From NCBI RefSeq assembly GCF_001598915.1, contig NZ_BDAP01000001.1:434001-498000 (forward strand): a stretch of 64,000 nt of DNA. The letters are read 5' to 3'. This document shows positions 42,080-56,729 of this stretch, one piece after another. Below the pieces are notes generated by a model, which saw only the letters and a list, made by a program, of their open reading frames with translations, searched no databases and had not been told where the DNA came from. Source of the DNA: Williamsia muralis NBRC 105860. GTDB lineage: Bacteria; Actinomycetota; Actinomycetes; Mycobacteriales; Mycobacteriaceae. Position numbers and translations under genes: made by a program. Within the stretch, counting starts at the first letter, position 1. The number at the start of each line of letters is the position of its first letter.

Positions 42080-42739
42080 CTAGAGGCCGCCGAGGCCTTT
42101 GCCGAATAGCCCTACACCGATTACAAGGATGAGGACGCTCATCACGGTGGTGTTGTTGGCCTGAAGCCATTCTTTGAGGTGTGCGAGCGGCTCGCGAAGG
42201 CGATCTGCGGCGAGATGATAGGCCAGTACGGGTATCACGACCGTCATCGCTGCCAGGACGGAGAACACTGCGACGGCCACGACGGTGCTGCCGACGCTCA
42301 ATGCGCCGGCGCCTATCGTGACGCCGGCGGCTGCGCACATCAGCAAGTTCTTCGGATTGATGGCGGCCAATGCGAAACCGAGGCCGACGGCTTTGATCGC
42401 GGTCATCTCGTCGATCGCGGCCATCCATGCCGGCGTGGCATGGGGTCCGGTACGTGCGCGCCATTGTCGGACTCCGACCGCCAGCAGCAGTAGTCCGAGT
42501 ACCAGCTTGATCCACGACGAGGTGGTCGACGGCCCGTCGTCGGTAGAGTCGGCCGCGCCGCCGAGAAGTACAAAAACAACGGTGGCAGCGACGATTCCGA
42601 CCAGCCAACCCACGGCGAAGCCGATGCTGGTCGACCCTGCCCGGGTACCGAGCAGCATCAAGATCGCGGCGATGATGGGTATCGGTGATACCGCCACCCC
42701 CACTGCCAGCGGCAGCAAGTCGCCGATTACTGCTCCCAT
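42080..42739 (-). CDS. GAP/Sap family membrane protein
   Basis: A 219-residue protein with six hydrophobic segments. LLPLAVGVAVSPIPIIAAIL and AAINPKNLLMCAAAG are hallmarks of the LysE-like GAP (Sap) family, whose mycobacterial members take part in glycolipid export to the cell surface. The ATG at 42739 is used; a GTG directly before it is equally possible. It begins a run of six uncharacterised membrane proteins. Confidence 0.82.
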   Translation of the reverse strand: MGAVIGDLLPLAVGVAVSPIPIIAAILMLLGTRAGSTSIGFAVGWLVGIVAATVVFVLLGGAADSTDDGPSTTSSWIKLVLGLLLLAVGVRQWRARTGPHATPAWMAAIDEMTAIKAVGLGFALAAINPKNLLMCAAAGVTIGAGALSVGSTVVAVAVFSVLAAMTVVIPVLAYHLAADRLREPLAHLKEWLQANNTTVMSVLILVIGVGLFGKGLGGL

Positions 42740-42924
42740 CACAGGATCCCGGCTCGCGCGGACATGTGATGCCCGGCCGGTTCGGTTCCCCAGGTGGTGA
42801 CACCCGCGAGACCTTGTCGTCTCCGACGTCGATCGGTGGACGGTGTTGTGGTCATGAGAATCCTCTCTGGGGGAGATACTGTGCGTGACAACCGCTGTGT
42901 CGGGGAATGCAGGCGAGGTGGCTG

Positions 42925-43284
42925 ATGAGTGACGACTTGGGTGAGCAGCCCGTTCCGGGTGCGGTCGATGCCCGCTTCACGTTGGCGGCCGAACGAACTG
43001 TGCTGTCGTGGATCCGCACGTCGCTGGGAATGATCGCTGCCGGCATGGCCATCTTGCATGTGCTGCCGTCGTTTTCATCGTCGCTGGTTCGTGATGTTGT
43101 CGGTGTGGGACTCGTGGCGATGGGTGCCATAGCGTCCGTGGTCGGAGCGATGAGGTGGCGGCAGACCACCAATGCTCTGCGCGGAGGCGGTCCCATGCCA
43201 GGTCCGGCGCCGATATGGCTCCTCATCGGGATCCTGGTGGTGTTGTCGTTGACTGTGCTCGTTGCCACCCTGGCTGACCCCTGA
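42925..43284 (+). CDS. DUF202 (YidH-like) membrane protein
   Basis: A 119-residue protein with three hydrophobic segments. AERTVLSWIRTSLGMIAAG is the DUF202 signature. Function is unknown in the family. The gene is divergent from the GAP gene and convergent with the AI-2E gene. Confidence 0.85.
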   Translation: MSDDLGEQPVPGAVDARFTLAAERTVLSWIRTSLGMIAAGMAILHVLPSFSSSLVRDVVGVGLVAMGAIASVVGAMRWRQTTNALRGGGPMPGPAPIWLLIGILVVLSLTVLVATLADP

Positions 43285-43330
43285 CCGAGTAGGCGTTCAA
43301 TCGGCCGGGCCTTCATCACAGGCTGGTCGG

Positions 43331-44419
43331 TCACCGCGTGTCCTCAACGGGTGTCGGAGCCTTGTTGCTCAGGAATGTGTCGGCCCACCGGGTGGCCGGG
43401 TCGATGTCGACCAGAAATGCCTTTGCCATCAGGGTCAGAGGAACCGCGAGGATCGCGCCCAGTGGTCCCAGTACCCAACTCCAGAAGACCAGCGACAAAA
43501 ATGTCAAAGTAACCGATAGACCAACGGCGTCGCCGACGAACTTGGGTTGGATGACCGATTGGATGACGACGTTGAGGACGCTGTACACGGCGATGACCGC
43601 GATCATCAGTCCCGGCCCGCCCTCGAGTAACGCCAGCAACGCCGGTGGGATCACGCCCAGCACGAAGCCGATGTTGGGAATGTAGTTGGTGATGAAGGCC
43701 AGTACGCCCCACAGCACCGGTAGTGGAATATCCATGGCCCACAACGCCAAAGTGTCCAGAACTGCGACGATCAGACCGAACACTGTGGTGACCACCAGAT
43801 AACTGCGGGTGCCTTCGGAGAACGACACCAGGGCTGTGGCGATGTCGGGTCGGTCCCGGCGAACGGTATCGATACGAGCGGTGTACGACATCCCGTCGGC
43901 GGCCATGAACAGCAATAGAACAACGACGAAGACCAGATTGGAGAAGACCCCCAGGAATCCCTGGAGTACCTCTTCGACCACACCGAGCACTCTGGTCGAG
44001 TCGAGACCTGCGAGCATGTCCTGAACTTGATCGGGGCCGATGCCGTTGTTCTGCAAAGTGTCTTTTGCGTCGGCGATGAGTTCGTCGAACTCGTCGGCGT
44101 ACGTGGGGAGCAACTCCGAGAGTTGGGCGACCGACACCACCACGGCGACGAGAAGCACGACGAGCACGGCGTACACGGCCACGATCGCGACCAAGACCGC
44201 CACTGCGTTGGGTAAGCCTCTGCGGCGCAACCAGTCCGGTAATGGATGGACCGCAACGGTGAGCATCAACGCCAGCATGACAGGGCCCAGGATGTCGGCG
44301 AACGCCTTGAGTCCGGCGACGGTGACGATCAACGCTGCCGATCCGAGCAGCACGATCACCCCGCGGGGCAACGACCATATCGGAACCCGACCAACGTCAT
44401 CATTGCTGTTGCGTGGCAT
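43331..44419 (-). CDS. AI-2E family (PerM/TqsA-like) transporter
   Basis: A 362-residue membrane protein with about seven to eight hydrophobic segments. The C-terminal half has WGVLAFITNYIPNIGFVLGV and the ending VFWSWVLGPLGAILAVPLT, diagnostic of the AI-2 exporter superfamily, which also contains Na+/H+ antiporters and proteins of unknown transport role. The start at 44419 follows AAAGAGC. Confidence 0.9.
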   Translation of the reverse strand: MPRNSNDDVGRVPIWSLPRGVIVLLGSAALIVTVAGLKAFADILGPVMLALMLTVAVHPLPDWLRRRGLPNAVAVLVAIVAVYAVLVVLLVAVVVSVAQLSELLPTYADEFDELIADAKDTLQNNGIGPDQVQDMLAGLDSTRVLGVVEEVLQGFLGVFSNLVFVVVLLLFMAADGMSYTARIDTVRRDRPDIATALVSFSEGTRSYLVVTTVFGLIVAVLDTLALWAMDIPLPVLWGVLAFITNYIPNIGFVLGVIPPALLALLEGGPGLMIAVIAVYSVLNVVIQSVIQPKFVGDAVGLSVTLTFLSLVFWSWVLGPLGAILAVPLTLMAKAFLVDIDPATRWADTFLSNKAPTPVEDTR

Positions 44420-44533
44420 GAGCGCTCTTTTCCGGTCGCGACGATGATTGCTACACACGGGACCTCGCAAGGGAGATCATCTCAGCGAACGGCAGCGGGG
44501 ACGCGGCAAACGGGCCGGTGGACTGAAACTGCT

Positions 44534-45430
44534 CTACGGTGCCGGGGAGCCGCGCAGCCACCGGCCGGGGGCGTCGTCGTCAACATCTTGCGTGAGGGCG
44601 TGCACGACGGTCGCGGAAATCACGACGATCGCCGAGTAGACGAACAGCCAGCCGATCATGGTGAACACCATTCCGAGGACACCGAACTGCTTCTCCGCGC
44701 TGTTCATGATCCGGGGGAGCGCCACCACGCTGGCGATCTGCAAGACTGTGAGCCCCACCGCTGTCAGTGCACCGGTTGACCAACGCGCGCGCGTGGGCAA
44801 CCCGGCGGGTAGCAGCAACGCTGGTATGGCAGTCCAGACCAACAGCCAGATCGCGAACTGAGTCGCCACCATGAGCCAAGGGCCAACAACAGGTACATCA
44901 TCGAGTGCTCGGGCAGCGCCGATTGCCATGGCGCCGGCGGCGACAGCGAGGATGACGATGATCCACCGCCAGCCCTGCCGATAGGTTGGGATCGCGCTAC
45001 TCCAGATTTGCCCGTAGGTACGGGCCAGCGCGCGGGCGTAAGAGGTCCCGCTGATGACCAACATGAACACACCCACCACACCGAACGCGGTTGCCGATGC
45101 CTCGGTTGCCCCGTCCAGCTCGCTGAGATCGAGTCCGTAATCGGACCGTAGGGCCTCCGACACCGGGTCCATTGCGCCCAGCGTCCCGATGGCGATCATC
45201 ACCGGAACCAGAGAGGTGAACGACTGCGCGGCCAACGTCATCGCACGGTCCACCACTCCGATTTCGAGTACCTCGAAGACGACGCGGACAGCCGCGCGGC
45301 CTCGGGCAGTGGTCCGCAACCGGGCCCGAGTGCGGTCGAGGACGTTGCGTGTGTCGATCATGTTCATCAGCATCCCAGCGCGAGGGAGCGGGGGCATGCC
45401 CACCGAGAAACTCTTGGTCGAATCAACCAT
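44534..45430 (-). CDS. YihY/BrkB family membrane protein
   Basis: A 298-residue six-helix protein. VVDRAMTLAAQSFTSLVPVM corresponds to the first BrkB helix, SGTSYARALARTYGQIW follows, and the last helices contain GMVFTMIGWLFVYSAIVV. No function is proven for most members, and the RNase BN label of older annotations is wrong. The start codon is uncertain (45430 is used; 45361 is also possible). Confidence 0.85.
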   Translation of the reverse strand: MVDSTKSFSVGMPPLPRAGMLMNMIDTRNVLDRTRARLRTTARGRAAVRVVFEVLEIGVVDRAMTLAAQSFTSLVPVMIAIGTLGAMDPVSEALRSDYGLDLSELDGATEASATAFGVVGVFMLVISGTSYARALARTYGQIWSSAIPTYRQGWRWIIVILAVAAGAMAIGAARALDDVPVVGPWLMVATQFAIWLLVWTAIPALLLPAGLPTRARWSTGALTAVGLTVLQIASVVALPRIMNSAEKQFGVLGMVFTMIGWLFVYSAIVVISATVVHALTQDVDDDAPGRWLRGSPAP

Positions 45431-45580
45431 GGTCCGAACCACTCACGCGAATGGACCGCGCCACCGCAATGGTGGTCACGGACCCGTGTGGCCAACAGCA
45501 AGTAGCGCCGCCCGCAACAATCAAAGCTGGCATCGGTGGTGTCCCGGCGGGGCCGTGGTCGCGCGTTGCGCTGTCAGCAG

Positions 45581-45847
45581 CTACTGCCGCTGCACCTTCC
45601 GCTTGTTGCGTCCGCGGGCGGTGAGCACGCCGACGACCCAGCCGAGAGCGAACACGATCACCAAGATGAACCACAGCGGCGATCGAACGCTCACCCAGAA
45701 CAGATCGACACTCACGCTGTTTTTGTTCTGCACGATGAACACGATTGCGATAACCGTCAGACCCAGCGCAATCCATTGCGACAGCGAGACCGTCGCCAAC
45801 GATCGGCGACCAGTGGTCGGCTGCGTGATGCCGGGCTTTTTCGACAT
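45581..45847 (-). CDS. LapA-domain (DUF1049) small membrane protein
   Basis: An 88-residue protein with two hydrophobic helices (about 24-42 and 55-76) joined by VQNKNSVSVDLFWVSVRSPL, the LapA/DUF1049 signature, ending in a basic tail (RGRNKRKVQRQ). LapA proteins in E. coli work in envelope assembly with LapB. No lapB-like gene is here. Confidence 0.85.
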   Translation of the reverse strand: MSKKPGITQPTTGRRSLATVSLSQWIALGLTVIAIVFIVQNKNSVSVDLFWVSVRSPLWFILVIVFALGWVVGVLTARGRNKRKVQRQ

Positions 45848-46030
45848 GGTGCGAGCGTAGGCACATTCTGTAATCGGCGCGTCATTTCAGTGGTTTCGAT
45901 GAATAATTGCCTCGGTTCCCTTGGTTGCCGCCCCGCCCGCGCGGTCTACCCATGAGTGCACGCCGCCGGAACTGGGGCGGGCTGATTGTTGTGCAGCGAA
46001 CGGGAATCGAACTCGATGGAAGGGAATGTC

Positions 46031-47005
46031 GTGCTGCCTTTCATACCCACCAACCAACGACGAACGCTCGACGAGCTCGATGAACGACTCGACCTCACCA
46101 GTGGTGACCACCTGTCCAAAAGGTCGGCATTCTGGTTGATGTTGGTCCTCTCCTCCGTGATCGCGGCCGCAGGTGTGTGTTCCGACTCGACGGCCACGGT
46201 CATCGGAGCCATGATTGTCGCGCCACTCTCCACTCCCATCCTCGCAGTGGGCCTGGCAACAGTGACCGGACGCAGTCACCTGTTGCGTAGCAGTGTGTTT
46301 CACCTCGTTCTCGGAATCGTCGTGGTGATCGCCGTCGGCTTCCTCTTCGCGCAGGTGCTGCCGAACCCGACCAGCGTCCTGGACAACTCCCAAGTGCGCG
46401 GGCGTACTTCGCCGACTTTGATGGACCTGCTCGCCGCGCTCGCCACGGGTCTGGTCGGCGCAATCGCGATCACGCGACGTGATGTGGGCGACGTGCTCCC
46501 CGGCGTGGCCATCGCGATCTCTCTGGTGCCGCCCCTTGCCGTGACCGGCGTGTGCCTCGGTTCTGGTGAGCCCGCACTAGGTCTGGGCGCTCTGGTTTTG
46601 TTCGCGTCCAACGTCGTTGCGATGATCATCACTGCGACGGTTGTACTCGTCGTGGCCGGCTACCGCCCGTCGACAGCCCGCCGCGATCGCCGCCATCGCC
46701 GGGCGTATGTGTTGCTGGGAGTGGCCCTGTGTGTCGTTGCCGTTCCGATGGTGGGCAATTCGCTGACGACACTGTGGGCGGCGCAGATCACCACCGCCAC
46801 CGAGAACTGGTTGCGCGAATCACCCCGCAACGACGTCACTTCGGTCACCTGGCAGGGCGGTACCGCGACGATCGCTGTGTTCGGGCCCGAAGCCCTGCCG
46901 CCAATGGAGGGCCTTCGAAAGTCTGTGGCCGACCTGCTGCCGTTCACACCCGAACTCGAGGTTGTCCATGACTTCGGCGTGACCGTATCGACAGACGACG
47001 GCTGA
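46031..47005 (+). CDS. DUF389 family membrane protein
   Basis: A 324-residue protein. RSAFWLMLVLSSVIAAAGVC and STATVIGAMIVAPLSTPIL are the DUF389 (TIGR00341-like) core, and several further helices follow to about residue 250. The C-terminal 80 residues are a soluble domain (VTSVTWQGGTATIAVFG). The GTG at 46031 is chosen because AGGGA lies five bases before it, while an in-frame ATG at 46016 has no site. Function unknown. Confidence 0.83.
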   Translation: MLPFIPTNQRRTLDELDERLDLTSGDHLSKRSAFWLMLVLSSVIAAAGVCSDSTATVIGAMIVAPLSTPILAVGLATVTGRSHLLRSSVFHLVLGIVVVIAVGFLFAQVLPNPTSVLDNSQVRGRTSPTLMDLLAALATGLVGAIAITRRDVGDVLPGVAIAISLVPPLAVTGVCLGSGEPALGLGALVLFASNVVAMIITATVVLVVAGYRPSTARRDRRHRRAYVLLGVALCVVAVPMVGNSLTTLWAAQITTATENWLRESPRNDVTSVTWQGGTATIAVFGPEALPPMEGLRKSVADLLPFTPELEVVHDFGVTVSTDDG

Positions 47006-47075: not shown

Positions 47076-49724
47076 CTACAGCATGGCCCAGGACCGGGCT
47101 GTCTCGACTGCTTCGCGACGTGTGGCGACCCCTAACTTGCGATAGATCGACCGCTGGTGAGTTTTCACGGTGTTCACCGAGACGAACAGATCGGCGGCGA
47201 TTTCTGATGACTTCAGCATGGTCGGAAGGTATTTGAGCACCGCCATCTCCCGATCGGTGAGCGGCTGGACAACTGGAGGGCGGGGGACAGCCGCCGTGAG
47301 CCCATCACTTCTCAGCGAGGCGAGCTCGGTCGCAAAAGCACTCTGGTCGTCGTGCAGATGCCTGAATCGACTCAGGTGTGAAGCGATCTGGCCGTTCCCG
47401 CCCACAAACGGACGCCTCAAACCGATCGGTTCAGCCAAGACGACAGCCTTTTCGAAATTGTCGGCAGCAAGCGCGTCTTGCCGGAGCTGACCCCGCGCGA
47501 TGGCCTCGAGGATCGCGGCCTCAGCGGCCAACGACCGGTACCTCCCGAACAGCCCCGGAAAGTCGAGCGCTTTCAGAGTCGCTGCGGGATCGTTCATCGC
47601 CAATTGCGCCTTGGCTTCCACGATCTGATGCAATCCCGTTGTGAAGCCCGTATGGCCTGCCGTTGCATTCCCGCCGTGGGGCGCCTCGTAAGGCTTTCCG
47701 AGCGCCATGCAGGCCTCGGCGCGAATGGCCTGCGACCAGCCGGCGAGCAGACGGGGAAGGTTGCCCACCGTGCGTTCGAGAACATCGAGGCGGTTGAGTG
47801 TCAGTCCGATCGCTTCCGCATCCAGCTTCGCGATCGCGACGGCCACGGCAGCGAAGTGAAGGATGAGACGGCACCCCACGTCTGATCCCTGCGCGCTTGC
47901 CTCCAGCCCTACGTCGATGCGAGCCTGCGCGGTATCGAGCTCGAAGCGGTAGAGATGCACCCAGGCCAGGGCGGCATGAGATGCGAGCAGTTGCATCTCC
48001 CGCACCCACCCCTTTCTGTCCGCGGTGTCCAATGCCCATTGAGCACGGCTGGTGGCCTGGTCGAGGTTTCCGTACAGGGTGTCGACGAGCGCTGAGTAGG
48101 ACTCTGCCGACAACTCGGTCAAAGTCATGCCGGCGTGCGCGCCCTGAACGCAAACTGCGTCGAGTTCGATCTGGGCCTCGGCGAACCGGTCTTCCCACAC
48201 CAATCCGCTGGCATGATTGTTCAAGGCGATCAACGTGTATGCCGTGGCGGCCGGTATCTCCCGCTGCGACGCGTCTTTCACCATGCCGAGGAGCACCTCG
48301 GACGTCGTCACCAAAGTGCTCGGGGTGCTGACACGGGAATACACGATTCGCGCGAGGGCGACGATCACCCGCGTGGCAAGTGGCTGCGGTATCCCTTGCG
48401 AAGCAAAGATGCGCTCGGCGTCATCGGCGGTTCTGCGCATCGACTCGAAGTCGTGCCGCTGATAGTCACAGACCATCGCCACGATGAGGGTCTCGGCGGA
48501 GGTGCGCCACGCCGGGTCGTCGTATACGGCCGCGAGTGCAGCGACCAACGCCGTCGCCTGCGGGGTGAGGATCAGGGGTAGTGCGACCTCGCCGAGCATC
48601 TTGACCGTTGCTTGCCAGCTGCGGGCGAGTGCGAAGAACCGGAGCGCAACGATGGGTTCATCGTTGCTGACGTACCACTGTGCCGCGCGCAGATAGAGGT
48701 GCGGAACACTATCCGGGTTCTCGGCGGAAAGGCGCTCTCGCAACAGATCTCGCAGGAGCGGGTGGTAACGGAACCACGTCGGCCGGTCAGACAGCCTCAC
48801 GGTCAACGCGTTGCGACTGACGAGCATGTCCAGCATCTGAGCGCTGTCGGCTCGTCCTGACAGAGCCCGCGCCAGGTCTGGGCTCATCTGCTCGACCACA
48901 CTCGTGGCAAGGAGAAACAGTCGGTCTCTCGGTTCCAGGCGTTCGAGTATTTCCTCCAGCAGATACTCCGCCACCCGGCGGTTGTTGGCGTGGTCGACGG
49001 CGGGCGCGCTCGACTCCTCGATACCCATCAGGGCCAGCCGTACTCCGGCGGGCCAGCCCTGAGTTCGGGTGAACAGTTGTTCGGCCTCGTGCGCGGTGAG
49101 TGTGAAGCCGCCGACCGCACACACGCGACGGGTCTCAGCGGCCGTGTACGTCAAATCATCGGAGCCGATCTCGACGATGTCGTCAGCGAGCCTGAGCCGC
49201 GACAGGTGTAGCGGTGGTGTGGTGCGACCGACGAGCACCAGGCGCAATTGGGGTATCCGGTACTCGATGAGTCGGCTGATGGAGTCGACCACGGCGTCGT
49301 CGGTGAGTTCGTGGACATCGTCCAGAACGAGGACGACCGGATCGGGCAGCTGGGTCAGCGCCGCAACGATCCGCGCCAATTCCGCCGAGCCAAACGTGGG
49401 TCCTGGTGTGATCTCCCCGAGCGGGCTGCTGCCAGGCAGGGCGCCGGCACTTTTCAAGGCGTTCAATACGTCTGTCCACAGCCCGCGTACGTCGTATGAC
49501 TGGGCCGCGGTGAGCCAGGCAACGGGCCCTGGCAGACGGTTGTGGTTGATCCAGGCCGATACGGCAAGCGTTTTACCGTATCCCGGCCCGCCGGTGACAA
49601 CTGTGAGCGTTTTGTCGACACCTCGATCGAGCATCGCATCGAGTCTCTGACGCTGAACGAAACCGGGTGGAAGTGCTGCGCGGGAGGTGCGCAAGGTCAG
49701 GGCTGCGGTGAACTGATCGGACAT
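47076..49724 (-). CDS. MalT-type LuxR-family ATP-dependent regulator
   Basis: An 882-residue STAND regulator: P-loop VTGGPGYGKTLAV near residue 45, Walker B VVLVLDDVHEL near 130, a winged-helix/arm region to about 360, a TPR-like helical domain, and a C-terminal LuxR HTH (LTDREMAVLKYLPTMLKSSE, then VNTVKTHQRSIYRKL). Members oligomerise with ATP and an inducer to activate transcription. AAGGGA precedes the ATG. It sits between the membrane-protein run and the DUF6325 cluster and is the only regulator in 15 kb, so it may govern one or both. Confidence 0.9.
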   Translation of the reverse strand: MSDQFTAALTLRTSRAALPPGFVQRQRLDAMLDRGVDKTLTVVTGGPGYGKTLAVSAWINHNRLPGPVAWLTAAQSYDVRGLWTDVLNALKSAGALPGSSPLGEITPGPTFGSAELARIVAALTQLPDPVVLVLDDVHELTDDAVVDSISRLIEYRIPQLRLVLVGRTTPPLHLSRLRLADDIVEIGSDDLTYTAAETRRVCAVGGFTLTAHEAEQLFTRTQGWPAGVRLALMGIEESSAPAVDHANNRRVAEYLLEEILERLEPRDRLFLLATSVVEQMSPDLARALSGRADSAQMLDMLVSRNALTVRLSDRPTWFRYHPLLRDLLRERLSAENPDSVPHLYLRAAQWYVSNDEPIVALRFFALARSWQATVKMLGEVALPLILTPQATALVAALAAVYDDPAWRTSAETLIVAMVCDYQRHDFESMRRTADDAERIFASQGIPQPLATRVIVALARIVYSRVSTPSTLVTTSEVLLGMVKDASQREIPAATAYTLIALNNHASGLVWEDRFAEAQIELDAVCVQGAHAGMTLTELSAESYSALVDTLYGNLDQATSRAQWALDTADRKGWVREMQLLASHAALAWVHLYRFELDTAQARIDVGLEASAQGSDVGCRLILHFAAVAVAIAKLDAEAIGLTLNRLDVLERTVGNLPRLLAGWSQAIRAEACMALGKPYEAPHGGNATAGHTGFTTGLHQIVEAKAQLAMNDPAATLKALDFPGLFGRYRSLAAEAAILEAIARGQLRQDALAADNFEKAVVLAEPIGLRRPFVGGNGQIASHLSRFRHLHDDQSAFATELASLRSDGLTAAVPRPPVVQPLTDREMAVLKYLPTMLKSSEIAADLFVSVNTVKTHQRSIYRKLGVATRREAVETARSWAML

Positions 49725-49914
49725 AGCCCGTTCCCTTCTTGGTCAACGCTCCCGAACGCGACACGCAAATAGTAGGCCTTATCGATCGCGGTCACAGCTC
49801 ATTCGCTATGGGTGACGACATTGCCGCGCCTTGGCGTGCAGCATTGAGCAGCCACGGCAAAGGCCAGTTCCATGAACGATGTTCCGCCGGCGGCCGTCCG
49901 GCTTGGGAGGCAAT

Positions 49915-50358
49915 GTGGTCGAACACGTATCCGGGCTGGGTCCCATTGACTACCTGGTGGTCGAATTCCCAAGCGGGGTAACCACTTTTTCCGAATCGAT
50001 GTTCAAATCACTGTTGGCTCTGGTCAACAAAGAGATCATTCGTGTGCTCGACCTGTTGGTCTTGAGGAGAAGTCATACCGGCGAACTGGATGTGTTCGAG
50101 ATCGAGGATCTTGAGTTTGCTGAGCTGAGAATCTTGGACGCCACATTGGCCGAGATACTGGCTGCCGACGATATCGAGAATTTGGCGTGTGCTGTGGCGC
50201 CCGGCGCTGCCGCCGGAGTCATCGTCTGGGAGAACGTCGGAGTTGCGCCCATGGCAGTCGCCGCAAGCGAGGTGGGCGCGCAGATAGTCGCCCAAGGCCG
50301 GATACCGTCTCGGGCGGTCATCGACACCATCGAGGCCGATCGAAAGGAGGGCCGGTGA
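49915..50358 (+). CDS. DUF6325 family protein, paralogue 1
   Basis: A 147-residue soluble protein. Shared features with the copy at 53664-54107 are LGPIDYLVVEFP near the start, RVLDL, and GAQIVAQGRIPSRA near the end. Both proteins have exactly 147 residues when this GTG start (GGGAGG five bases upstream) is used. The family is actinobacterial and uncharacterised. The next gene starts two bases after its stop. Confidence 0.8.
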   Translation: MVEHVSGLGPIDYLVVEFPSGVTTFSESMFKSLLALVNKEIIRVLDLLVLRRSHTGELDVFEIEDLEFAELRILDATLAEILAADDIENLACAVAPGAAAGVIVWENVGVAPMAVAASEVGAQIVAQGRIPSRAVIDTIEADRKEGR

Positions 50359-50359
50359 C

Positions 50360-50560
50360 ATGGCGATGCGACCAGGACGGTTGACTCGCCGCCCCGTGAT
50401 CGGCCACCCGGTGGTACGCAGCACAATCCGGGACGACGCCGCGTCCGTCATCGCAGGGGCAGTCCATCGGCGTGGCCCCGGTGGCTCCGAGTCTGCGTCA
50501 CCTGCGCTGCCCGCGGACCTGGCTCATGATTCCAGCGACGGCGACGACCTCGAGCGATGA
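50360..50560 (+). CDS. Small basic protein downstream of DUF6325
   Basis: A 66-residue protein (MAMRPGRLTRRPVIGHPVVR) that is basic at the N-terminus and acidic at the C-terminus. AGGAGG lies nine bases upstream and the gene starts one base after the DUF6325 stop, so it is probably real. It occupies the position taken by the SHOCT protein next to the other DUF6325 copy, and both open with a short M-x-P-G-x-L/R basic segment. A truncated homologue without a SHOCT domain is possible (inference). Confidence 0.55.
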   Translation: MAMRPGRLTRRPVIGHPVVRSTIRDDAASVIAGAVHRRGPGGSESASPALPADLAHDSSDGDDLER

Positions 50561-50755
50561 CTGTCCCGCGTCCGACAACACACAAAGAGGAGTTGCGCCG
50601 CGCCCCTGCCGTACCGCGTTGCCTTTCGGTGTGTCAGAGAACTCTGGGCTGCTCATCCTCGGCGGATGAGGTCGGATGGTCACCTGCAACGCAACATTTG
50701 AATGCAGGATTCGAATTCCGAATCAAGCCGGGCCAAACAGAAATGAGGGTTCATC

Positions 50756-51136
50756 GTGTGGGATTCGTTCTGGGACTTCATCTGGTACACAATCGTCATC
50801 TTCGCTTTTGTGGCGTACCTGATGATTCTGTTCAACGTCATCGCCGACCTCTTCCGTGATCACGAAAGTTCGGGCTGGGTCAAAGCGATGTGGATTCTGT
50901 TCTTGGTTGTGGTGCCGTACATCGCCCTGTTCGTGTACCTGATCGCCCGCGGTAGTGGAATGGCCAAGCGAGCGGCGGCCTCGCAAGAAGCGGCACGGCA
51001 GCAGGCGGATTCCTACATCAGGCAGGCCGCAGGTACCTCGCCGGCCGACCAGATCGCCACTGCCAAAGCGCTCCACAACGATGGAACGATCACCGATGCC
51101 GAGTATGAGCAGCTCAAAGTAAAAGCGCTCAGTTAA
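50756..51136 (+). CDS. PLDc_N membrane domain plus SHOCT domain protein
   Basis: A 126-residue protein with a GTG start. Two hydrophobic helices (about 6-28 and 43-63, including VKAMWILFLVVVPYIALFVY) form the PLDc_N (cardiolipin-synthase N-terminal-like) anchor, then a helical linker and the SHOCT motif ATAKALHNDGTITDAEYEQL. SHOCT domains are often oligomerisation modules at the ends of membrane proteins. No phospholipase catalytic domain is present. Confidence 0.82.
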   Translation: MWDSFWDFIWYTIVIFAFVAYLMILFNVIADLFRDHESSGWVKAMWILFLVVVPYIALFVYLIARGSGMAKRAAASQEAARQQADSYIRQAAGTSPADQIATAKALHNDGTITDAEYEQLKVKALS

Positions 51137-51138
51137 TA

Positions 51139-51330
51139 GGTGAGGCTTCGTCAGTCCTCATCGCTGCCGTCGTAGTCGACGGCGACGAAACGGAGATCGA
51201 AATAGAGATCAGCTGGCGCGACAACGGCACGGAAGACACGGCTACGAGCGCTCCTGCGGCTGAACCGGCACGACCACAGCCGAAGAAGACGCGCCGCGCG
51301 GCGCCACGGAAGGCACCTGCCAAACAGTGA
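51139..51330 (+). other. 64-codon open frame without a start codon, coding-like
   Basis: Directly after the SHOCT gene stop, in the -1 frame, an open frame reads EIEIEISWRDNGTEDTAT and then a Pro/Lys/Arg-rich tail (PQPKKTRRAAPRKAPAKQ). Third codon positions are strongly G/C, as in real genes here. No ATG, GTG or TTG lies between the preceding in-frame stop (51106) and the conserved-looking region. It would need frameshifting from the upstream gene, a rare start codon, or a small sequence error. Confidence 0.35.
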
Positions 51331-51375
51331 AGTCTCCTTAGCCAACGCGACGAGAACGTGCGATGTCAGCGACTG

Positions 51376-51957
51376 TCAGTGTGTGAGAACTACTTTGACG
51401 ATGGTGATGACCGTTGCCAACACGGCGACGCCGATTCCTGAGCCGATCGTTCGCCACGACACCTTCGTCGTCTGCAGACGTTCGACCACCAATCCGAGCA
51501 CTGCGATCCTGAAGATGACGATGCCGGCCGCACAGAGCTGTGCACCTGGTGGGTCGAACAGCGCGATGACGTCGAAGGATCCGATCAGCAGGACGGCGAA
51601 CGGCAGCGTTCCCGACGTGATGATCGGCATCGAGTCGCGCAGGACCGTCTTGAGTTTCAAAGTATCGGTGGGACCGGTTGTTTCGCCCTCCCGTCGGGTG
51701 ATCACACCGTGCGACAACCATTCGGCGAAGATGTGCGCAACAAACGTCGACACGGTGGTTCCCAAGACCAACCACGCTGCCAGCCGATTCTCTACTGCGT
51801 GGGCATCTGACACGACGATCACCGACAGTACGAGGATGTTGCCGTAGGCAAACGCCTCCACCCGTCGTGCTGCGCGCTCCGGCGGTAACCGCCTGCCAGT
51901 CTCGTGTCGCGTCAGTGCAGTGAACCACCCTGGGTCTTTCACGGTATGTCTGGCCAT
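51376..51957 (-). CDS. Hypothetical multi-helix membrane protein
   Basis: A 193-residue protein with four to five hydrophobic segments (about 38-55, 60-82, 115-135, 142-160, 172-192) and a basic N-terminus. I do not recognise a family. The sequence WLSHGVITRR and the VSTFVAHIFAEW segment with His and Glu residues within the membrane are notable. The first 19 bases overlap the DUF2252 gene, so they are co-transcribed. Confidence 0.7.
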   Translation of the reverse strand: MARHTVKDPGWFTALTRHETGRRLPPERAARRVEAFAYGNILVLSVIVVSDAHAVENRLAAWLVLGTTVSTFVAHIFAEWLSHGVITRREGETTGPTDTLKLKTVLRDSMPIITSGTLPFAVLLIGSFDVIALFDPPGAQLCAAGIVIFRIAVLGLVVERLQTTKVSWRTIGSGIGVAVLATVITIVKVVLTH

Positions 51958-53321
51958 CCTTGCTCGGACGGGATGTCACCGTTCTCGACTGCGCGCGCCA
52001 ACTGCGCGTGATCGGCGGCGTTCTGATCGGCATAAGCGCTCGAGAAGCACTCCATCGCGGTTTCCACTTTGTCGCTGGTCCCGAGGTAGTCGCAGATGGC
52101 GGCTGCGTCGCCACTGCGTGCGTGCGCACGGGCCAGCACATGTCCGCAGGCAGCTGCGAACCGGGAGAGATGCGGGGCGATTCCCTCGCCTTTGGGAATC
52201 ACCTTCCCATCTCGGAACTGTCGGACGTAGAAGTCCATGTCCTCATACGAGGTCCACCCGACGAACATGTCGGTGGCACTCTGGATCAGGCGTTGGCCGT
52301 GCACCACCCGAGCGCCATGGTTCTCATATTTGCTCCTGCCGAGGAACGGTTCATACACCGACGCCCCGGCCTGCTTCACCTGCAGGAATAGCGGATCCCC
52401 GCTGCGCCGTTCCTCCAGCAGCGTCAAGAAGACACGCATACCGACGCTGCCGACGCCGACCACCTGCCGGACAGCGTCGAGGGCGTCGTAGCGGCTGAGC
52501 AGGTTGTCGAGGTGGTCGGGCACAGATTCGCGGTATCTGCTGAGCACCTCACGCAGCACTTCTTCGGCGGCTGCACCGAGGCGGTGGGTGCGGTAGGGCG
52601 GGTCTTCGGTGATCGTCCGCCGGCCGTCGACATCTGCTGTCAGTTTGGCGGACACCCCTCTGCTGGTCCGCTTCTTGACCTTGCTCTCGATGAGGGCGTC
52701 GAAGTCTGCCTCGTTGTCCTTTTTGGCGTAGTGGAGGAGCTGATCGACATCGATGCGGTCGTACCACACATCGATCTGGGGCATCGCGGCGTAGATGCCT
52801 ATGTGCTTGCGATAGCTTCGATATCCGGATCGAACTGCTTTGCAGCCCAGAGACTCTGGGATGTTGTTGTCGCGTGCCAGCACGATGAGGCTTGCCAGGA
52901 AACGTTTGAGATCCCACTCGAACGGCCCGGGCAGGGTTTCGTCGAAATCGCGAAGGTCGAAGACAAGATTTCGCTCTGGAGAAATCCACAGCCCGTAGTT
53001 CAAGACATGGGCATCTCCGCACATCTGAACCATGATGCCGGTGTGCGGGGTGGACGCCAGATCGTTGGCCATGACGGCCGCGGCGCCGCGATAGTACGTC
53101 CATGGGGAGTGACTCATCCGCCCGTGGCGGATGGGCAACAGATCGGGTGCTCGGATATCACTCTGGGCGAGAATCGTCTGCAAGGCATCGTGCCCGCGCG
53201 TTTCTGGATTCCAGGCCCCGAGTTCGCGGCGGGAGACCAACGACCGCGACTGTCGGCCGGGTGTGGCGTGTTCGGGAACGGGGTCGTCCACCAGCGCGGT
53301 GGATTTCTCTGCAAGAGTCAT
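51939..53321 (-). CDS. DUF2252 domain protein
   Basis: A 460-residue protein. The family signature is seen as WTYYRGAAAVMANDLA, then VQMCGDAHVLNYGLW, LVFDLRDFDETLPGPFEWDL and, towards the end, DMFVGWTSYEDMDFYVRQ. The fold is predicted in databases to be related to aminoglycoside phosphotransferase-like kinases: GDAHxxN (catalytic-loop-like) and DFDE (metal-binding-like) are present. The substrate is unknown. Confidence 0.87.
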   Translation of the reverse strand: MTLAEKSTALVDDPVPEHATPGRQSRSLVSRRELGAWNPETRGHDALQTILAQSDIRAPDLLPIRHGRMSHSPWTYYRGAAAVMANDLASTPHTGIMVQMCGDAHVLNYGLWISPERNLVFDLRDFDETLPGPFEWDLKRFLASLIVLARDNNIPESLGCKAVRSGYRSYRKHIGIYAAMPQIDVWYDRIDVDQLLHYAKKDNEADFDALIESKVKKRTSRGVSAKLTADVDGRRTITEDPPYRTHRLGAAAEEVLREVLSRYRESVPDHLDNLLSRYDALDAVRQVVGVGSVGMRVFLTLLEERRSGDPLFLQVKQAGASVYEPFLGRSKYENHGARVVHGQRLIQSATDMFVGWTSYEDMDFYVRQFRDGKVIPKGEGIAPHLSRFAAACGHVLARAHARSGDAAAICDYLGTSDKVETAMECFSSAYADQNAADHAQLARAVENGDIPSEQGWPDIP

Positions 53322-53362
53322 GGGATTCGTCTCACTGGGGTGTTGAGCGCAGGGATCGGCGG

Positions 53363-53641
53363 CTAGGAGGCCAGTATTCTTGCTTTTTCGGCGGCGAACT
53401 CCGCCTCGGTGAGAACGCCTTGCGCTTTGAGCTCACCGAGCTGTTGCAGGGCACCCAAGCGGTCGCCGCTCGGGGCTGGGGGAGCGGCGGCTGGGGGCGG
53501 TGGTGCGTATTGTGGCGGTGTTTGTTGCGATTCTTGAGTTGCCCACCTTTGGCTTTGGCGTCGGGAGACCCGGTTGGACACCGATGTCGCCGTGCCGGCG
53601 ACAACTGCGGTTCTGGCGATTCCACGGAGTAATCCAGGCAT
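53363..53641 (-). CDS. SHOCT domain protein
   Basis: A 92-residue protein. A short N-terminal helix (MPGLLRGIARTAVVAGTATS) is followed by a basic patch, a Pro/Ala-rich linker and a C-terminal SHOCT motif (LGELKAQGVLTEAEFAAEKARIL). AAGGAG lies six bases before the ATG. It lies 22 bases downstream of DUF6325 paralogue 2 and is surely in the same transcript. Confidence 0.85.
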   Translation of the reverse strand: MPGLLRGIARTAVVAGTATSVSNRVSRRQSQRWATQESQQTPPQYAPPPPAAAPPAPSGDRLGALQQLGELKAQGVLTEAEFAAEKARILAS

Positions 53642-53663
53642 TGTCTGCTCCTTGTCGAGGCGA

Positions 53664-54107
53664 TCAGGCGTCGAGCGCGTCCAGTGATGCGTGGATCGAC
53701 TCGGCTGGGATACGACCGGTGGCCACCAGTTGTGCACCGGTGCGCCGCAGAGCGGTCGAAAATGGTGCGGCCCAGCGGTTTTCGTAGACCAGTACGGCTG
53801 CCGAGCAACCGGGTTCCAGAATCTCTGCTGCCTCACCCACGTCGGTGGAGTCGAGGAGTCCCGACGACGCTCCCGCGAACACTGCGATGTCGAGTTCGCC
53901 ATCCAGGTCGAGGTCTTCCAATGAGATACCGGCTACTGAACCGTCGGTGCCCTTGCGCACAAAGGTCAGATCCAGCACCCGGATGACCTCGCGATCGACC
54001 AGGTCGAGCAACATCGGAAATGCCGTCCCGTCGAACTTCGCGTTCGCCGGGAACTCGACGACGAGGTAGTCCACCGGCCCCAGGTCGATGTCGGGTGTGG
54101 TGGTCAT
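53664..54107 (-). CDS. DUF6325 family protein, paralogue 2
   Basis: A 147-residue protein with LGPVDYLVVEFP, RVLDLTFVRKG and GAQLVATGRIPAES, parallel to the protein at 49915-50358. It is more acidic in the middle. It leads into the SHOCT and DUF2252 genes. Conservation of the YENRWAAPF segment in this copy versus WENVGVAPM in the other marks the main divergence. Confidence 0.85.
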   Translation of the reverse strand: MTTTPDIDLGPVDYLVVEFPANAKFDGTAFPMLLDLVDREVIRVLDLTFVRKGTDGSVAGISLEDLDLDGELDIAVFAGASSGLLDSTDVGEAAEILEPGCSAAVLVYENRWAAPFSTALRRTGAQLVATGRIPAESIHASLDALDA

Positions 54108-54132
54108 TTCACTACCTCTAGGTGCGTGCGAA

Positions 54133-54558
54133 TCACGCTGTGCGCCATGTGGTGACTGCCCAGATGACGATCACATCGAGCGCGATCACGAGAATTGACC
54201 ACCATGGGTAGTAGGGCAACCACAGGAAGTTGGAGACGATCGAGATGGCAGCGATGACGATTGCGGCCGCTCGGGCCCACATCGCGCCGGTCATCATCCC
54301 GAATGCGATGGCGATACCGAGGAGTCCGACAACAAGAACGATCCAGCCCCAGGTGGTCAGATCGAATTCGTAGGTGTACTTGGGGCCGGACACGAAGATC
54401 TCGTCCTCTGCCAATGCCGAAATGGCCTGCAGCACAGCCAGTAGCGAAACCGTGAAGAGTAGAACGGAGGCAGCGAAGATGGTGCCTCCCGCGAAGCCTT
54501 GCTTGACGGGGTGACGTTCATGGCCGGCCACTGATGGTGTCTCGGCGGAAGTGCTCAT
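54133..54558 (-). CDS. Four-helix membrane protein (DUF7144-like)
   Basis: A 141-residue protein with four hydrophobic segments. FAGGTIFAASVLLFTVSLLA, the external DLTTWGWIVLVVGLLGIAI and the final YPWWSILVIALDVIVIWAV are typical of a small actinobacterial membrane family. Three ATG codons stand in tandem; the third (54558) has the best spacing from GGAGG. It lies 25 bp before DUF6325 paralogue 2 and likely starts this operon. Confidence 0.75.
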   Translation of the reverse strand: MSTSAETPSVAGHERHPVKQGFAGGTIFAASVLLFTVSLLAVLQAISALAEDEIFVSGPKYTYEFDLTTWGWIVLVVGLLGIAIAFGMMTGAMWARAAAIVIAAISIVSNFLWLPYYPWWSILVIALDVIVIWAVTTWRTA

Positions 54559-54929
54559 CATCATCCTCCAGAGGGGAAGCGAACAGGTGTCCCTTCGACC
54601 ATCCACCAAGACTCGCAGCTGGTTCTCATCCGTTTTGGGTGATTGCCCAGGCGCCGGGGTTCCCTGAATTCGGAGGTCTGATGATGACGCTGTGTCTATT
54701 CAATGTGCCACTGCTGCCTCATTTATCGATTGATTCCAAAGCAACGGCGCGGGCTGCTATTTTCGACGGACACGGCCAGTTGTCAGCCGTGACTCAGCCG
54801 TCGAGAATGGCATCGATGTTCTGACCTGTTCGACATCGAGTGAGGTACTCGACGGTCCACCCACTCCGAATCCCACGGGCATGCGATGACCGCCAGATAG
54901 CGGGGTGACTACTTCGTCGAGGAGTGCTG
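54559..54929. other. Divergent promoter region before the alkylsulfatase gene
   Basis: No gene is seen. It should contain promoters for the DUF7144/DUF6325 operon on the left and the alkylsulfatase on the right. I looked for a mycobacterial SigF-like GTTT/GGGTA pair and found none convincing. Confidence 0.4.
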
Positions 54930-56729
54930 ATGCCCGCCGACTTTTCTGATCGCACCGATTTCACCAACGCCAATCGTGGACTGATCGCGACCCTGGAACC
55001 AGCAGAGGTTCGGGCCAGTGACGACCGGGTCGTGTACGACGCAGCGGGGTTCGCCGCAGCGACAACCGGCGATTGTCCAGACACGGTCAACCCGAGCCTA
55101 TGGCGTCAAGCGCAATTGACGGCCATTCACGGCTTGTTTGAGGTGACCGCAGGGATCTACCAGATCCGCGGGTACGACTTGTCGAACATGACACTGGTCG
55201 AGGGGGACACCGGAGTGGTGGTCATCGATCCGCTGGTGTCGGCCGAGTGCGCCGCGGCGGGGCTGTCGCTCTATCGGAGCCAGCGCGGCGATCGCCCCGT
55301 CACCGCCGTGATCTACACCCACTCGCACATCGACCACTTCGGTGGTGTCCTCGGTGTTGTCGACGCCGACACCGCCGTGCCGATCCTGGCCCCCGAGCAC
55401 TTTCTCGAGCATGCGGTCTCAGAGAACGTGTACGCCGGCGGCGCCATGTTGCGTCGAGGAATGTTCCACACCGGCATCGTCTTGCCGGTCGGCGCGACCG
55501 GAACTCTCGGCGCCGGTCTGGGACCGAGCACATCAAACGGAACCGTCGGGTTGCTGGCACCCACGCTCGACATCACCCACACGGGTCAGGAGGAAATACT
55601 GGACGGCGTCCGCATCATCTTCCAGGTGACCCCGGGCACCGAGGCGCCCTCGGAGATGAACTTCTACTTCCCCGATCATCGCGCGTTGTGCCTGGCCGAG
55701 AACGCGACCCACAATCTGCACAACCTCCTCACCCTGCGAGGCGCCGAAGTCCGCGATGCCCGCAACTGGTCGAGATACATCGCCGAGGCCATCGAGATGT
55801 TCGCCTACGATTCCGACGTCGCGTTTGCCTCGCATCACTGGCCGACCTGGGGGACCACCGAGTTGATCGGGTACCTCACCGAACAACGCGACCTGTATGC
55901 GTATCTGCACGACCAAACACTGCGTCAGCTCAACCAGGGCCATGTCGGTTCGGAGATCGCCGAAGACTTCCAGATGCCGCCGGCCTTGGACGCTGCGTGG
56001 CACACCCACGGGTACTACGGCTCGGTCAGTCACAACGTCAAAGCCATCTATCAGCGTTACCTCGGTTGGTATGACGGCAATCCGGCGCATTTGTGGCAAC
56101 ACCCGCCCGAGGCGGCCGGAGCCCGGTACGTCCGCGCTATCGGCGGCATCGACGCAACCGTGGCGCGGGCGCAGGAGTTCGCTGACGAGGGAGACCTTCG
56201 ATTCGCCGCGGAGCTGGCGAGTCATGCTGTGTTTGCCGAACCCGACCATGCTGGTGCAAAAGCAGTGCTGACCGACGCATTGACGCGACTGGGATACGGC
56301 TCTGAATGCGCCACCTGGCGCAACAACTATCTGGTTGGCGCCAGTGAAGTCGACGGGCCCACTCACCCGGCCGAAGTCAGCGCGGCCGGTATGGCGTCCG
56401 CGTTGACGATCACCCAAGTCTTCGACAGCATCGCGATCCGCATCGACGGCCCTCGAGCATGGGACACCTCGGCATCAATCCGGTGGCACTTCACCGATGT
56501 GGACGAGACCTACCGGATGGAACTGTCCAACGGTGTGTTGATCCACTATCCCACCAAGCGCGCCGACCCAGCCGATCTTCTTGTCACCCTGACCACGCCG
56601 CAACTCCTCGGGCTCGTCGCCGGGTCCGGCGCCGAGGGCATCACGATGGACGGCGACCCGGCAACCATCGGAACAATCGTCGGACTCACAGATCAGCCCG
56701 ATCCGGCATTCAGGATCGTCACACCCTGA
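54930..56729 (+). CDS. Alkyl sulfatase of the metallo-beta-lactamase type (SdsA1/BDS1-like)
   Basis: A 599-residue enzyme. The dinuclear zinc motif THSHIDHFGG (His131, His133, Asp135, His136) is followed by ENATHNLHNLLTLRGAEVRD and FASHHWPTWG, the characteristic SdsA1-type segments, and a C-terminal SCP2-like domain (from about 480). No Sec signal is evident. It hydrolyses linear alkyl sulfate esters such as SDS to alcohol and sulfate, providing carbon and sulfur. GAGGAG sits five bases before the ATG. Confidence 0.92.
   Translation: MPADFSDRTDFTNANRGLIATLEPAEVRASDDRVVYDAAGFAAATTGDCPDTVNPSLWRQAQLTAIHGLFEVTAGIYQIRGYDLSNMTLVEGDTGVVVIDPLVSAECAAAGLSLYRSQRGDRPVTAVIYTHSHIDHFGGVLGVVDADTAVPILAPEHFLEHAVSENVYAGGAMLRRGMFHTGIVLPVGATGTLGAGLGPSTSNGTVGLLAPTLDITHTGQEEILDGVRIIFQVTPGTEAPSEMNFYFPDHRALCLAENATHNLHNLLTLRGAEVRDARNWSRYIAEAIEMFAYDSDVAFASHHWPTWGTTELIGYLTEQRDLYAYLHDQTLRQLNQGHVGSEIAEDFQMPPALDAAWHTHGYYGSVSHNVKAIYQRYLGWYDGNPAHLWQHPPEAAGARYVRAIGGIDATVARAQEFADEGDLRFAAELASHAVFAEPDHAGAKAVLTDALTRLGYGSECATWRNNYLVGASEVDGPTHPAEVSAAGMASALTITQVFDSIAIRIDGPRAWDTSASIRWHFTDVDETYRMELSNGVLIHYPTKRADPADLLVTLTTPQLLGLVAGSGAEGITMDGDPATIGTIVGLTDQPDPAFRIVTP

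Follow-up and report, generated by a model that had tools for sequence, protein, structure and literature searches.

A putative MalT-type regulon encoding a DUF6325-SHOCT protein pair in Williamsia muralis

SHOCT domains are widespread and, to our knowledge, have no agreed function. SHOCT-like domains are predicted in PMC11237479 to anchor proteins to the inner leaflet of the membrane, and a test of SHOCT self-association described in PMC3581485 was negative. A 17-bp MalT site, TCATCC-5 nt-GGATGA, has been described in Actinoplanes sp. SE50/110 together with malT deletion and overexpression data, the site itself resting on motif and transcript data (PMC7567727). Here we analyse a gene cluster of Williamsia muralis NBRC 105860, lying in a 64,000-nt stretch of DNA (the window), in which genes for DUF6325 and SHOCT proteins are accompanied by sites of the form TCATYC-N5-GGRTGA.

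The cluster genes were all present as judged by open reading frames and Pfam matches (Table 1), and the descriptions of SHOCT92 (the 92-residue SHOCT protein), the PLDc_N-SHOCT protein, DUF2252 and the unrecognised membrane protein given in an earlier note on this DNA stand. The four-helix membrane protein of that note likewise exists and is DUF7144, for which ATG codons at 54561 and 54558 are both possible starts. The PLDc_N-SHOCT protein matched PLDc_N above the cut-off (25.5 bits) and SHOCT slightly below it (25.2 bits, cut-off 27), and the 193-aa membrane protein has 10 homologues among the loci compared. The three operator sites, the identity of DUF7144 and the truncated amphi-Trp gene were absent from the earlier note; an intact amphi-Trp homologue lies 3' of DUF6325 copy 1 in L097, L110, L104 and L095. 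Among the papers covered by a full-text search, none mentioned DUF6325, DUF7144 or amphi-Trp, and none named a SHOCT domain-containing protein together with upregulation.

Table 1. Features of the cluster, with coordinates as positions in the window.
Feature	Position	Strand	Evidence or remark
LuxR-family regulator, MalT-like layout, 882 aa	47076..49724	-	N-terminal AAA-type ATPase, C-terminal GerE
Operator site 1 TCATTCGCTATGGGTGA	49799..49815	.	Regulator/DUF6325-1 divergent promoter; exact genome-wide match
DUF6325 copy 1, 147 aa, GTG start	49915..50358	+	Pfam PF19850, 36.4 bits
Small conserved protein, 66 aa, without Pfam family	50360..50560	+	Codon conservation, dN/dS
Operator site 2 TCATCCTCGGCGGATGA, perfect palindrome	50653..50669	.	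Upstream of PLDc_N-SHOCT; exact match
PLDc_N-SHOCT membrane protein, 126 aa, two TM-like segments	50756..51136	+	Pfam, TM scan
amphi-Trp gene remnant, C-terminal part only, without in-frame start codon	51142..51330	+	
Membrane protein, 193 aa, without Pfam match over cut-off	51376..51957	-	
DUF2252, kinase-like, 460 aa	51939..53321	-	Pfam 405 bits; motifs
SHOCT92	53363..53641	-	SHOCT 34.6 bits; conserved N-terminal motif
DUF6325 copy 2, 147 aa	53664..54107	-	Pfam 38.4 bits
DUF7144 membrane protein, 142 aa, four TM-like segments	54133..54561	-	Pfam PF23636, 137.4 bits
Operator site 3 TCATCCGTTTTGGGTGA	54626..54642	.	65 bp upstream of the DUF7144-DUF6325-SHOCT92-DUF2252-membrane protein unit; exact match

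Pfam and open reading frame analysis confirmed two convergent DUF6325 genes 3.3 kb apart, whose scores exceed the Pfam cut-off of 23.4 bits and which were the only matches in a search of the whole genome. Profile-profile comparison with DUF1269 (PF06897) gave an hhalign probability of 96.8% (E=2.7 × 10−10), indicating homology of the soluble halves, and the DUF6325 profile matched most DUF1269 proteins as two half-matches flanking the glycine zipper. The DUF1269 Pfam model matched neither DUF6325 copy even at E=1, a TM scan detected no TM-like segment in either copy, and the glycine-zipper hairpin of DUF1269 had no counterpart in the DUF6325 profile alignments. A PDB sequence search with DUF6325 returned nothing below E=0.12, and Foldseek with the DUF6325 model (AlphaFold, pLDDT 84.4 for copy 2) no match at E=0.001 or better. 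On the profile comparison, DUF6325 belongs with the glycine-zipper membrane proteins of DUF1269 as a predicted soluble relative.

The 66-residue protein that the earlier note had placed after copy 1 proved to be a conserved gene. Its open reading frame starts 1 base past the copy 1 stop and is preceded by a GGAGG ribosome site; the six loci of the genus in which copy 1 was examined all keep the first ~38 codons, and changes fall mostly at third codon positions. Of 15 pairs, dS was computable in 11, and in these dN/dS was 0.15–0.27 (one L105 codon was omitted from the alignment). Codon conservation, third-position changes and dN/dS together led us to treat it as a gene. Kinship of its product with SHOCT92 was not supported (hhalign probability 0.5%).

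The association of DUF6325 with SHOCT put forward in the earlier note recurs across genomes: far from being rarely adjacent, a SHOCT protein is encoded within 300 bp downstream of 35 of 43 DUF6325 genes (44 places minus the second fragment of a frameshifted gene, G314:C1:552466), against a background of three SHOCT matches in the 471 kb of these loci that lie more than 2.5 kb away. Adjacent pairs (n=91) are separated by a median of 19 nt, 83 of them by 60 nt or less. Among 296 genomes of the phylum, DUF6325 occurs in 34, SHOCT92-type proteins in 35 and both in 33 (Fisher's test P=3 × 10−40, which ignores genome kinship). Among the matches listed (to about E=10−6), one that had E≤3 × 10−12 and began no later than profile position 6 scored its genome as SHOCT92-positive; some of these matches, as in G282, G325 and G160, are fragmented or stop short. 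In a single genus, probably Streptomyces, 17 of 246 genomes encode DUF6325 and SHOCT fused in one polypeptide. SHOCT92 itself consists of an N-terminal motif, MPGLLRG(V/I)ARTAVVAGTATxVSNRVSRRQ, a Pro/Gln-rich linker and a C-terminal SHOCT domain (cut-off 27 bits); its N terminus was not TM-like in the TM scan and only moderately amphipathic. Adjacency, co-occurrence and natural fusions thus mark DUF6325 and its SHOCT protein as dedicated partners, which probably cooperate on the inner side of the cell membrane. A dedicated partner that also occurs as a natural fusion offers a direct route to what the SHOCT domain binds.

The regulator scored above cut-off for GerE (54.2 bits) and AAA_22 (28.9 bits); Pfam detected no TPR_MalT in the window protein, and an orthologue (L097:9117-11774) reached 40.9 bits for TPR_MalT, below the cut-off of 45. 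In six of six genus loci (the window and five congeners) copy 1 has a divergent LuxR/MalT-type regulator gene as its neighbour, and operator site 1 is a conserved block in the six congeneric intergenic regions. The 5.54-Mb genome holds four exact TCATYC-N5-GGRTGA sites, of which three are in the cluster, one per transcription unit, comprising one perfect palindrome and two sites with GGGTGA. Near matches with two mismatches occurred in the window at chance level (14 against 13 expected), and therefore only exact sites were used. Core sites numbered 42 in 2.17 Mb of loci, compared with 0–2 in five shuffles and 2–3 with an altered spacer, and co-localised with the regulator gene (15 loci with both, 11 with the site only, 7 with the gene only and 90 with neither; P=9 × 10−8, ignoring kinship). 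Per-genome site totals came to 174 against 10 for a backward control pattern, palindromic sites being counted twice. A blind word search upstream of DUF6325 returned TCAT-n7-GGGT, the operator core, as its top word, most of the top words having been set aside as coming from seven sequences that share one stretch.

The operator is lineage-restricted: exact sites were found in 5 of 61 named DUF6325 loci, none of the five from Streptomyces or Nocardia, and in the phylum sample within 400 bp of 6 of 41 DUF6325 genes compared with 2 of 320 other genes. Among called genes, core sites lay upstream of DUF6325 (18/116), DUF2252 (4/23), DUF7144 (3/33) and PLDc_N (1/23), of none of eight genes for the unnamed membrane protein and of 24 of 1,657 other genes. 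A separate site-gene comparison drew on 49 hand-picked sites among those listed; it covered 44 of the 47 DUF7144 places and 10 of the 79 DUF2252 places, and its counts are lower bounds. In 20 regions selected out of many in relatives, the site-bearing genes encode varied transporters and enzymes, and in G037 the site lies upstream of arginine deiminase pathway genes. In the Dactylosporangium genome L040 each of eleven contigs holds one of the 11 exact sites, and a clustered region is not demonstrable there. The SigB/SigF consensus is GTTT/GnnT-N14-19-GGGTA; such promoters were not enriched upstream of the cluster genes, and a SigB/SigF general stress regulon was rejected on this ground. Control by the adjacent LuxR/MalT-type regulator, as predicted from the sites, is the best-supported regulatory reading for the locus, and this one regulator apparently activates the whole cluster together.

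How far the partnership extends beyond DUF6325 and SHOCT can be weighed from the distribution of the companions. DUF2252 occurs in 17 of 17 DUF6325 genomes and 27 of 44 others (P=0.0013, ignoring kinship), so the proposed link exceeds chance; it does not reach an obligate core, since DUF2252 has a much wider distribution than DUF6325 (44 and 17 of 61 genomes, respectively) and, of the seven relatives in which the two are closely linked, six come from a single genus. DUF2252 is thus a co-regulated neighbour, and the idea of one complex around a kinase-like core is not supported. Its kinase-type motifs are in permuted order, with GDAHxxN (31 of 31 copies) and DFDE before GxGSxG (30 of 31) and QxKxA; the window copy retains all four motifs searched, and PKA gave the top, but weak, PDB matches in Foldseek (E=0.28, TM 0.12). 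DUF7144 is the tighter companion of DUF6325, with 17 of 17 DUF6325 genomes against 10 of 44 others (P=1.6 × 10−8, ignoring kinship). Shared regulation might be all that unites these genes, the DUF6325-SHOCT pair being real and DUF2252, DUF7144, PLDc_N-SHOCT and the others acting independently with no wider complex. To this we give even odds, in view of the freely shuffled gene order between genomes, the prevalence of DUF2252 and the variety of site-bearing genes in relatives, set against the distribution of DUF7144 and the finding that 9 of 40 loci have PLDc_N-SHOCT no more than about 10 kb from DUF6325.

The competition between paired subunits raised in the earlier note, taken as a contest of the two DUF6325 copies for a common SHOCT partner around a kinase-like core, appears improbable. 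A SHOCT protein and an operator do stand on both arms, and these genes recur, similarly arranged, in G008, but the copies share 36% identity and fall in separate clades. Six genomes of the genus contain copy 1, and in four of them the copies lie at different loci, where copy 1 has its own conserved small protein and no SHOCT92. We give hardly any credence to a toxin-antitoxin or anti-phage defence system, which the small paired proteins adjoining a kinase-like protein could bring to mind: none of seven proteins matched a PADLOC model at E=0.1, no toxin family was among the Pfam matches, and the genes are conserved genus-wide with a metabolic-type regulator.

We therefore favour, with a probability of about 0.6, a compact MalT-type regulon encoding a DUF6325-SHOCT membrane-surface module. 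The regulator (47076-49724) would bind the sites before its own gene and DUF6325-1, before PLDc_N-SHOCT and before the DUF7144-DUF6325-2-SHOCT92-DUF2252-membrane protein unit, and would activate all three units together, as we infer from these sites, from a divergent gene order that is kept among congeners and from the precedent in Actinoplanes. DUF6325 would be a soluble ferredoxin-like protein, related to DUF1269 and without its membrane hairpin, to which the SHOCT tail may bind, as adjacency, co-occurrence and fusion suggest. The SHOCT partner would probably bring DUF6325 to the membrane, either by the conserved stretch at the N terminus of SHOCT92 or by the pair of TM helices in PLDc_N-SHOCT. 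In the weakest step, the module, with DUF7144, DUF2252 and the site-bearing ion-transport genes of relatives, would most likely protect the envelope and ion/proton balance during a metabolic or envelope stress.

On a broader reading, which we offer tentatively, DUF6325-SHOCT could be a split, rewirable DUF1269 relative that, with its MalT-box output, forms an unrecognised ion/proton- and envelope-stress response under MalT-type ATPase control. The ferredoxin-like body would have lost the glycine-zipper hairpin and become soluble, membrane attachment passing to an exchangeable SHOCT partner (SHOCT92, PLDc_N-SHOCT or a fused tail). The module, DUF7144 and the permuted kinase DUF2252 would be MalT-box regulon output in some actinobacterial lineages, including that of the window, and in relatives the regulon may also take in chloride channels, Na+/H+ exchangers, AI-2E-type transporters and the arginine deiminase pathway. 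The operator would make DUF6325, DUF7144, DUF2252 and PLDc_N-SHOCT predictable members of one regulon in the window's lineage, and MalT-type regulation reported in Micromonosporaceae would extend to another family.

Compared with described families, DUF6325 aligns with both halves of the DUF1269 fold, but lacks the glycine-zipper membrane hairpin and falls below the DUF1269 model cut-off. The window DUF2252 resembles the kinase-like DUF2252 family of PMC9758233 in retaining kinase-type motifs, in permuted order. PLDc_N-SHOCT proteins described in PMC3581485 (80, up to 173 aa) carry the SHOCT domain at the C terminus, as in the window, whereas partnership with DUF6325, the motif at the N terminus of SHOCT92 and the fusion go beyond the SHOCT description given there. 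PSP-type membrane stress systems (PMC11237479) also place SHOCT beside membrane proteins, with soluble domains proposed to be anchored at the inner membrane face; unlike in those systems, no PspA, PspC or Toastrack was recognised among the window genes scanned, and DUF6325 does not occur in that account of PSP systems. The MalT-regulated large genomic region (MRLGR) of Actinoplanes (PMC7567727) comprises 51 genes, against about eight in the window cluster; its main text names no DUF6325, SHOCT or DUF2252 gene, and arginine deiminase genes, present there and behind the G037 site, are missing from the window cluster. The MRLGR is like the window cluster in its many poorly annotated membrane and enzyme genes, its gene order shuffled between species and its lack of maltose genes, and it shares the operator layout and a MalT-like LuxR regulator, which in the MRLGR is among its own targets.

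Computational comparison revealed that DUF6325 and SHOCT proteins form a real partnership within a compact MalT-type regulon: their genes are paired and in places fused, DUF6325 is homologous to DUF1269, and an operator is shared. No description of this partnership was found in the literature searched. All genes listed in the earlier note were recovered at their stated coordinates, its 'four-helix' protein being Pfam DUF7144, and the two DUF6325 genes of the cluster are the only matches in the whole genome. The 66-aa ORF, doubtful at first sight, was borne out: its ribosome site is strong, purifying selection is indicated, and its first ~38 codons are kept behind copy 1 at all six loci examined in the genus. 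The last ~50 residues of a truncated amphi-Trp gene match an intact gene soon after DUF6325-1 in four congeners (L097, L110, L104, L095). Beyond the regulator, on the side away from DUF6325-1, a series of envelope and transport genes contains no exact operator sites.

Features of the cluster and its flanks (window positions)
Feature	Position	Strand	Remarks
Envelope and transport run	42080-47005		SfLAP, DUF202, AI-2E-type transporter, LapA-domain and DUF389 genes; unassigned 279-aa gene
LuxR/MalT-type regulator	47076-49724	-
Site 1	49799..49815
DUF6325-1 (copy 1)	49915-50358	+	147 aa
66-aa ORF	50360-50560	+
Site 2	50653..50669
PLDc_N-SHOCT	50756-51136	+
Truncated amphi-Trp gene	51142-51330		Between PLDc_N-SHOCT (directly after it) and membrane protein; C-terminal part, no start codon
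Unnamed membrane protein	51376-51957	-
DUF2252	51939-53321	-	Kinase-like
SHOCT92	53363-53641	-	N-terminal motif, linker, C-terminal SHOCT
DUF6325-2 (copy 2)	53664-54107	-	147 aa
DUF7144	54133-54561	-
Site 3	54626..54642
Alkyl-sulfatase-like gene	54924-56729		Divergent from DUF7144; site 3 ~280 bp before its start

Among loci similar to copy 2, plus relatives, 71 of the 97 DUF6325 domain hits had a same-strand SHOCT no more than 600 bp downstream; because this similarity-based sample is biased to copy-2-like genes, a phylum-wide sample blind to neighbours was taken, in which 34 of 296 genomes contained DUF6325. There, SHOCT lay within 300 bp downstream of 35 of 43 DUF6325 genes, and the background more than 2.5 kb from DUF6325 in the same loci was 3 SHOCT in 471 kb. 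The eight other genes comprise window copy 1 (PLDc_N-SHOCT at 605 bp), a DUF6325-SHOCT fusion (L164), three genes with SHOCT at 950-3391 bp (L150, L156, L173) and three for which SHOCT downstream on the same strand was not found (L140, L166, L168). A profile search of the 296 genomes regardless of DUF6325, with a profile that was built from DUF6325 neighbours and favours that type, detected SHOCT92-type proteins that include the N-terminal part in 35 genomes, of which 33 also have DUF6325. One exception, G073, a fragmented assembly of 430 contigs, carries a frameshifted DUF6325 beside the SHOCT92 gene (L174); the other, G148, has a divergent N-terminus. The sole DUF6325 genome lacking a SHOCT92-type protein, G165, carries the fusion. 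At L178:7817-8598, a SHOCT gene overlaps the following DUF6325 gene by 4 bp.

The fusion, a single ORF encoding DUF6325 (Pfam, 35.4 bits) and SHOCT (20.5 bits, below the cut-off of 27), gives the strongest computational indication here that the two associate physically. End-to-end, stop-free matches to it occur in 17 of 246 genomes of the same genus, probably Streptomyces; in five genomes of this genus (G417, G459, G513, G521, G546) the SHOCT part is a separate match just downstream of the DUF6325 part. The four fused proteins read from the 17-genome set lack the SHOCT92 N-terminal motif, MPGLLRG(V/I)ARTAVVAGTATAVSNRVSRRQ, which has no Pfam family and is common, with few changes, to 38 of 40 aligned SHOCT92 proteins, from Streptomyces to a Chloroflexota MAG (L089 and L091 diverge). 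Rich in small residues, moderately amphipathic (moment 0.41) and not transmembrane-like, this N-terminus may touch the membrane or DUF6325.

Profile-profile comparison matched DUF6325 to DUF1269 (96.8% probability, E 2.7e-10). On 17 DUF1269 loci, the DUF6325 profile matched most proteins in two pieces (profile positions ~8-62 and 60-135), the N-terminal ones partly weak (E 0.03-1.3), and a DUF6325 protein matched a DUF1269 profile, previously iterated with that protein, in the same two pieces. The glycine-zipper hairpin of DUF1269 falls outside both pieces; the L178 DUF6325 has an insert rich in glycine, which resembles a remnant of this hairpin. The AlphaFold model of DUF6325 (pLDDT 84.4, pTM 0.75) has a beta-alpha-beta-beta-alpha-beta order plus C-terminal helices, and structure and PDB sequence searches found no close solved relative. 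One genome, G029, has the gene row DUF7144-DUF6325-SHOCT-DUF1269.

In 61 relatives including the genome itself, DUF7144 was present in 17/17 DUF6325 genomes versus 10/44 others (p 1.6e-8) and DUF2252 in 17/17 versus 27/44 (p 0.0013), p values here ignoring kinship. Within ~10 kb of DUF6325 at 40 loci of the phylum sample were DUF7144 (8), DUF2252 (5) and PLDc_N-SHOCT (9), and the unnamed membrane protein at none. As DUF1269 adjoins DUF2252 on the same strand in L129 (G028:C27), the association of DUF2252 with DUF6325 may not be a specific one; kinase matches of the DUF2252 model (pLDDT 83.2) were weak. Membrane-anchored diacylglycerol-kinase-like proteins also recur near DUF6325 (L097:6542-7897, L031:522-1865; cluster in 6 loci). 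The DUF6325-SHOCT pair may be placed at the membrane and act in stress.

Between the regulator gene and DUF6325-1, six congeners have one block in common, TCAT(T/C)C-N5-GG(G/A)TGACGACA, and its core TCAT-n7-GGGT was the top word of an earlier blind search upstream of DUF6325 (10/57 versus 2/635). The core TCATY-N6-GGGTGA occurs at 42 sites in 135 loci (2.17 Mb), whereas five shuffles gave 0-2 and an altered spacer 2-3. TCATYC-N5-GGRTGA occupies four places in the genome, three of them in the cluster, one before each transcription unit; the chance of three of the four falling within these 4.9 kb is ~3e-9, an after-the-fact figure since site 1 contributed to the motif definition. Site 3 might serve the alkyl-sulfatase-like gene too. 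The fourth site (L202, own genome C2:27500-33500, position 2975) lies between an AMP-binding enzyme and a 450-aa membrane protein without a Pfam family. Relatives of this membrane protein, sharing 50-71% identity in three loci, stand next to DUF6325 in 21 loci and also follow a site in L203.

Across the 61 genomes, a site lay within 300 bp of at least 14/27 DUF6325, at least 12/44 DUF7144 and at least 5/10 DUF2252 genes examined; sites were more numerous in DUF6325 genomes (p 1.3e-8), with 174 counted (palindromic sites twice) versus 10 for a backward control pattern. In a set of 123 DUF6325 loci, the core site and a gene for this type of regulator co-localise (both in 15, site only in 11, gene only in 7, neither in 90; p 9e-8). 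Exact sites were found in 5 of 61 named DUF6325 loci, none in Streptomyces or Nocardia, and at 6/41 DUF6325 versus 2/320 other genes of the phylum sample; this rarity indicates that the pairing is broader than operator regulation.

The regulator, which presumably binds these sites, has C-terminal GerE (54.2 bits) and N-terminal AAA (28.9 bits) domains. Since a Pfam scan gave no TPR_MalT match in it, the label 'MalT-type' rests on size, layout, operator and a weak TPR_MalT match in the L097 orthologue (40.9 bits, below cut-off). In 20 chosen site regions of relatives, genes next to the site encode CLC chloride channels, Na+/H+ exchangers, an AI-2E-type transporter, an amino acid permease and PLDc_N-SHOCT, and further a sulfatase, a GGDEF-EAL protein, a penicillin-binding protein and an AMP-binding enzyme. 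In G037, the site adjoins genes for arginine deiminase, ornithine carbamoyltransferase and an amino-acid-kinase-family protein placed like carbamate kinase; this site (L215, G037:C1:3518400-3524400), between these genes and a Na+/H+ exchanger, provides a connection with the MalT region of Actinoplanes.

According to the Actinoplanes study (Droste et al. 2020, PMC7567727), whose main text mentions neither DUF6325 nor SHOCT, malT deletion and overexpression changed ~40/51 genes and affected no maltose genes. In the same source, 17 start sites have TCATCC-5nt-GGATGA across their -35 region, a layout equal to that of the cluster operator, and the Actinoplanes MalT region likewise contains amino acid permeases and genes of the arginine deiminase pathway.
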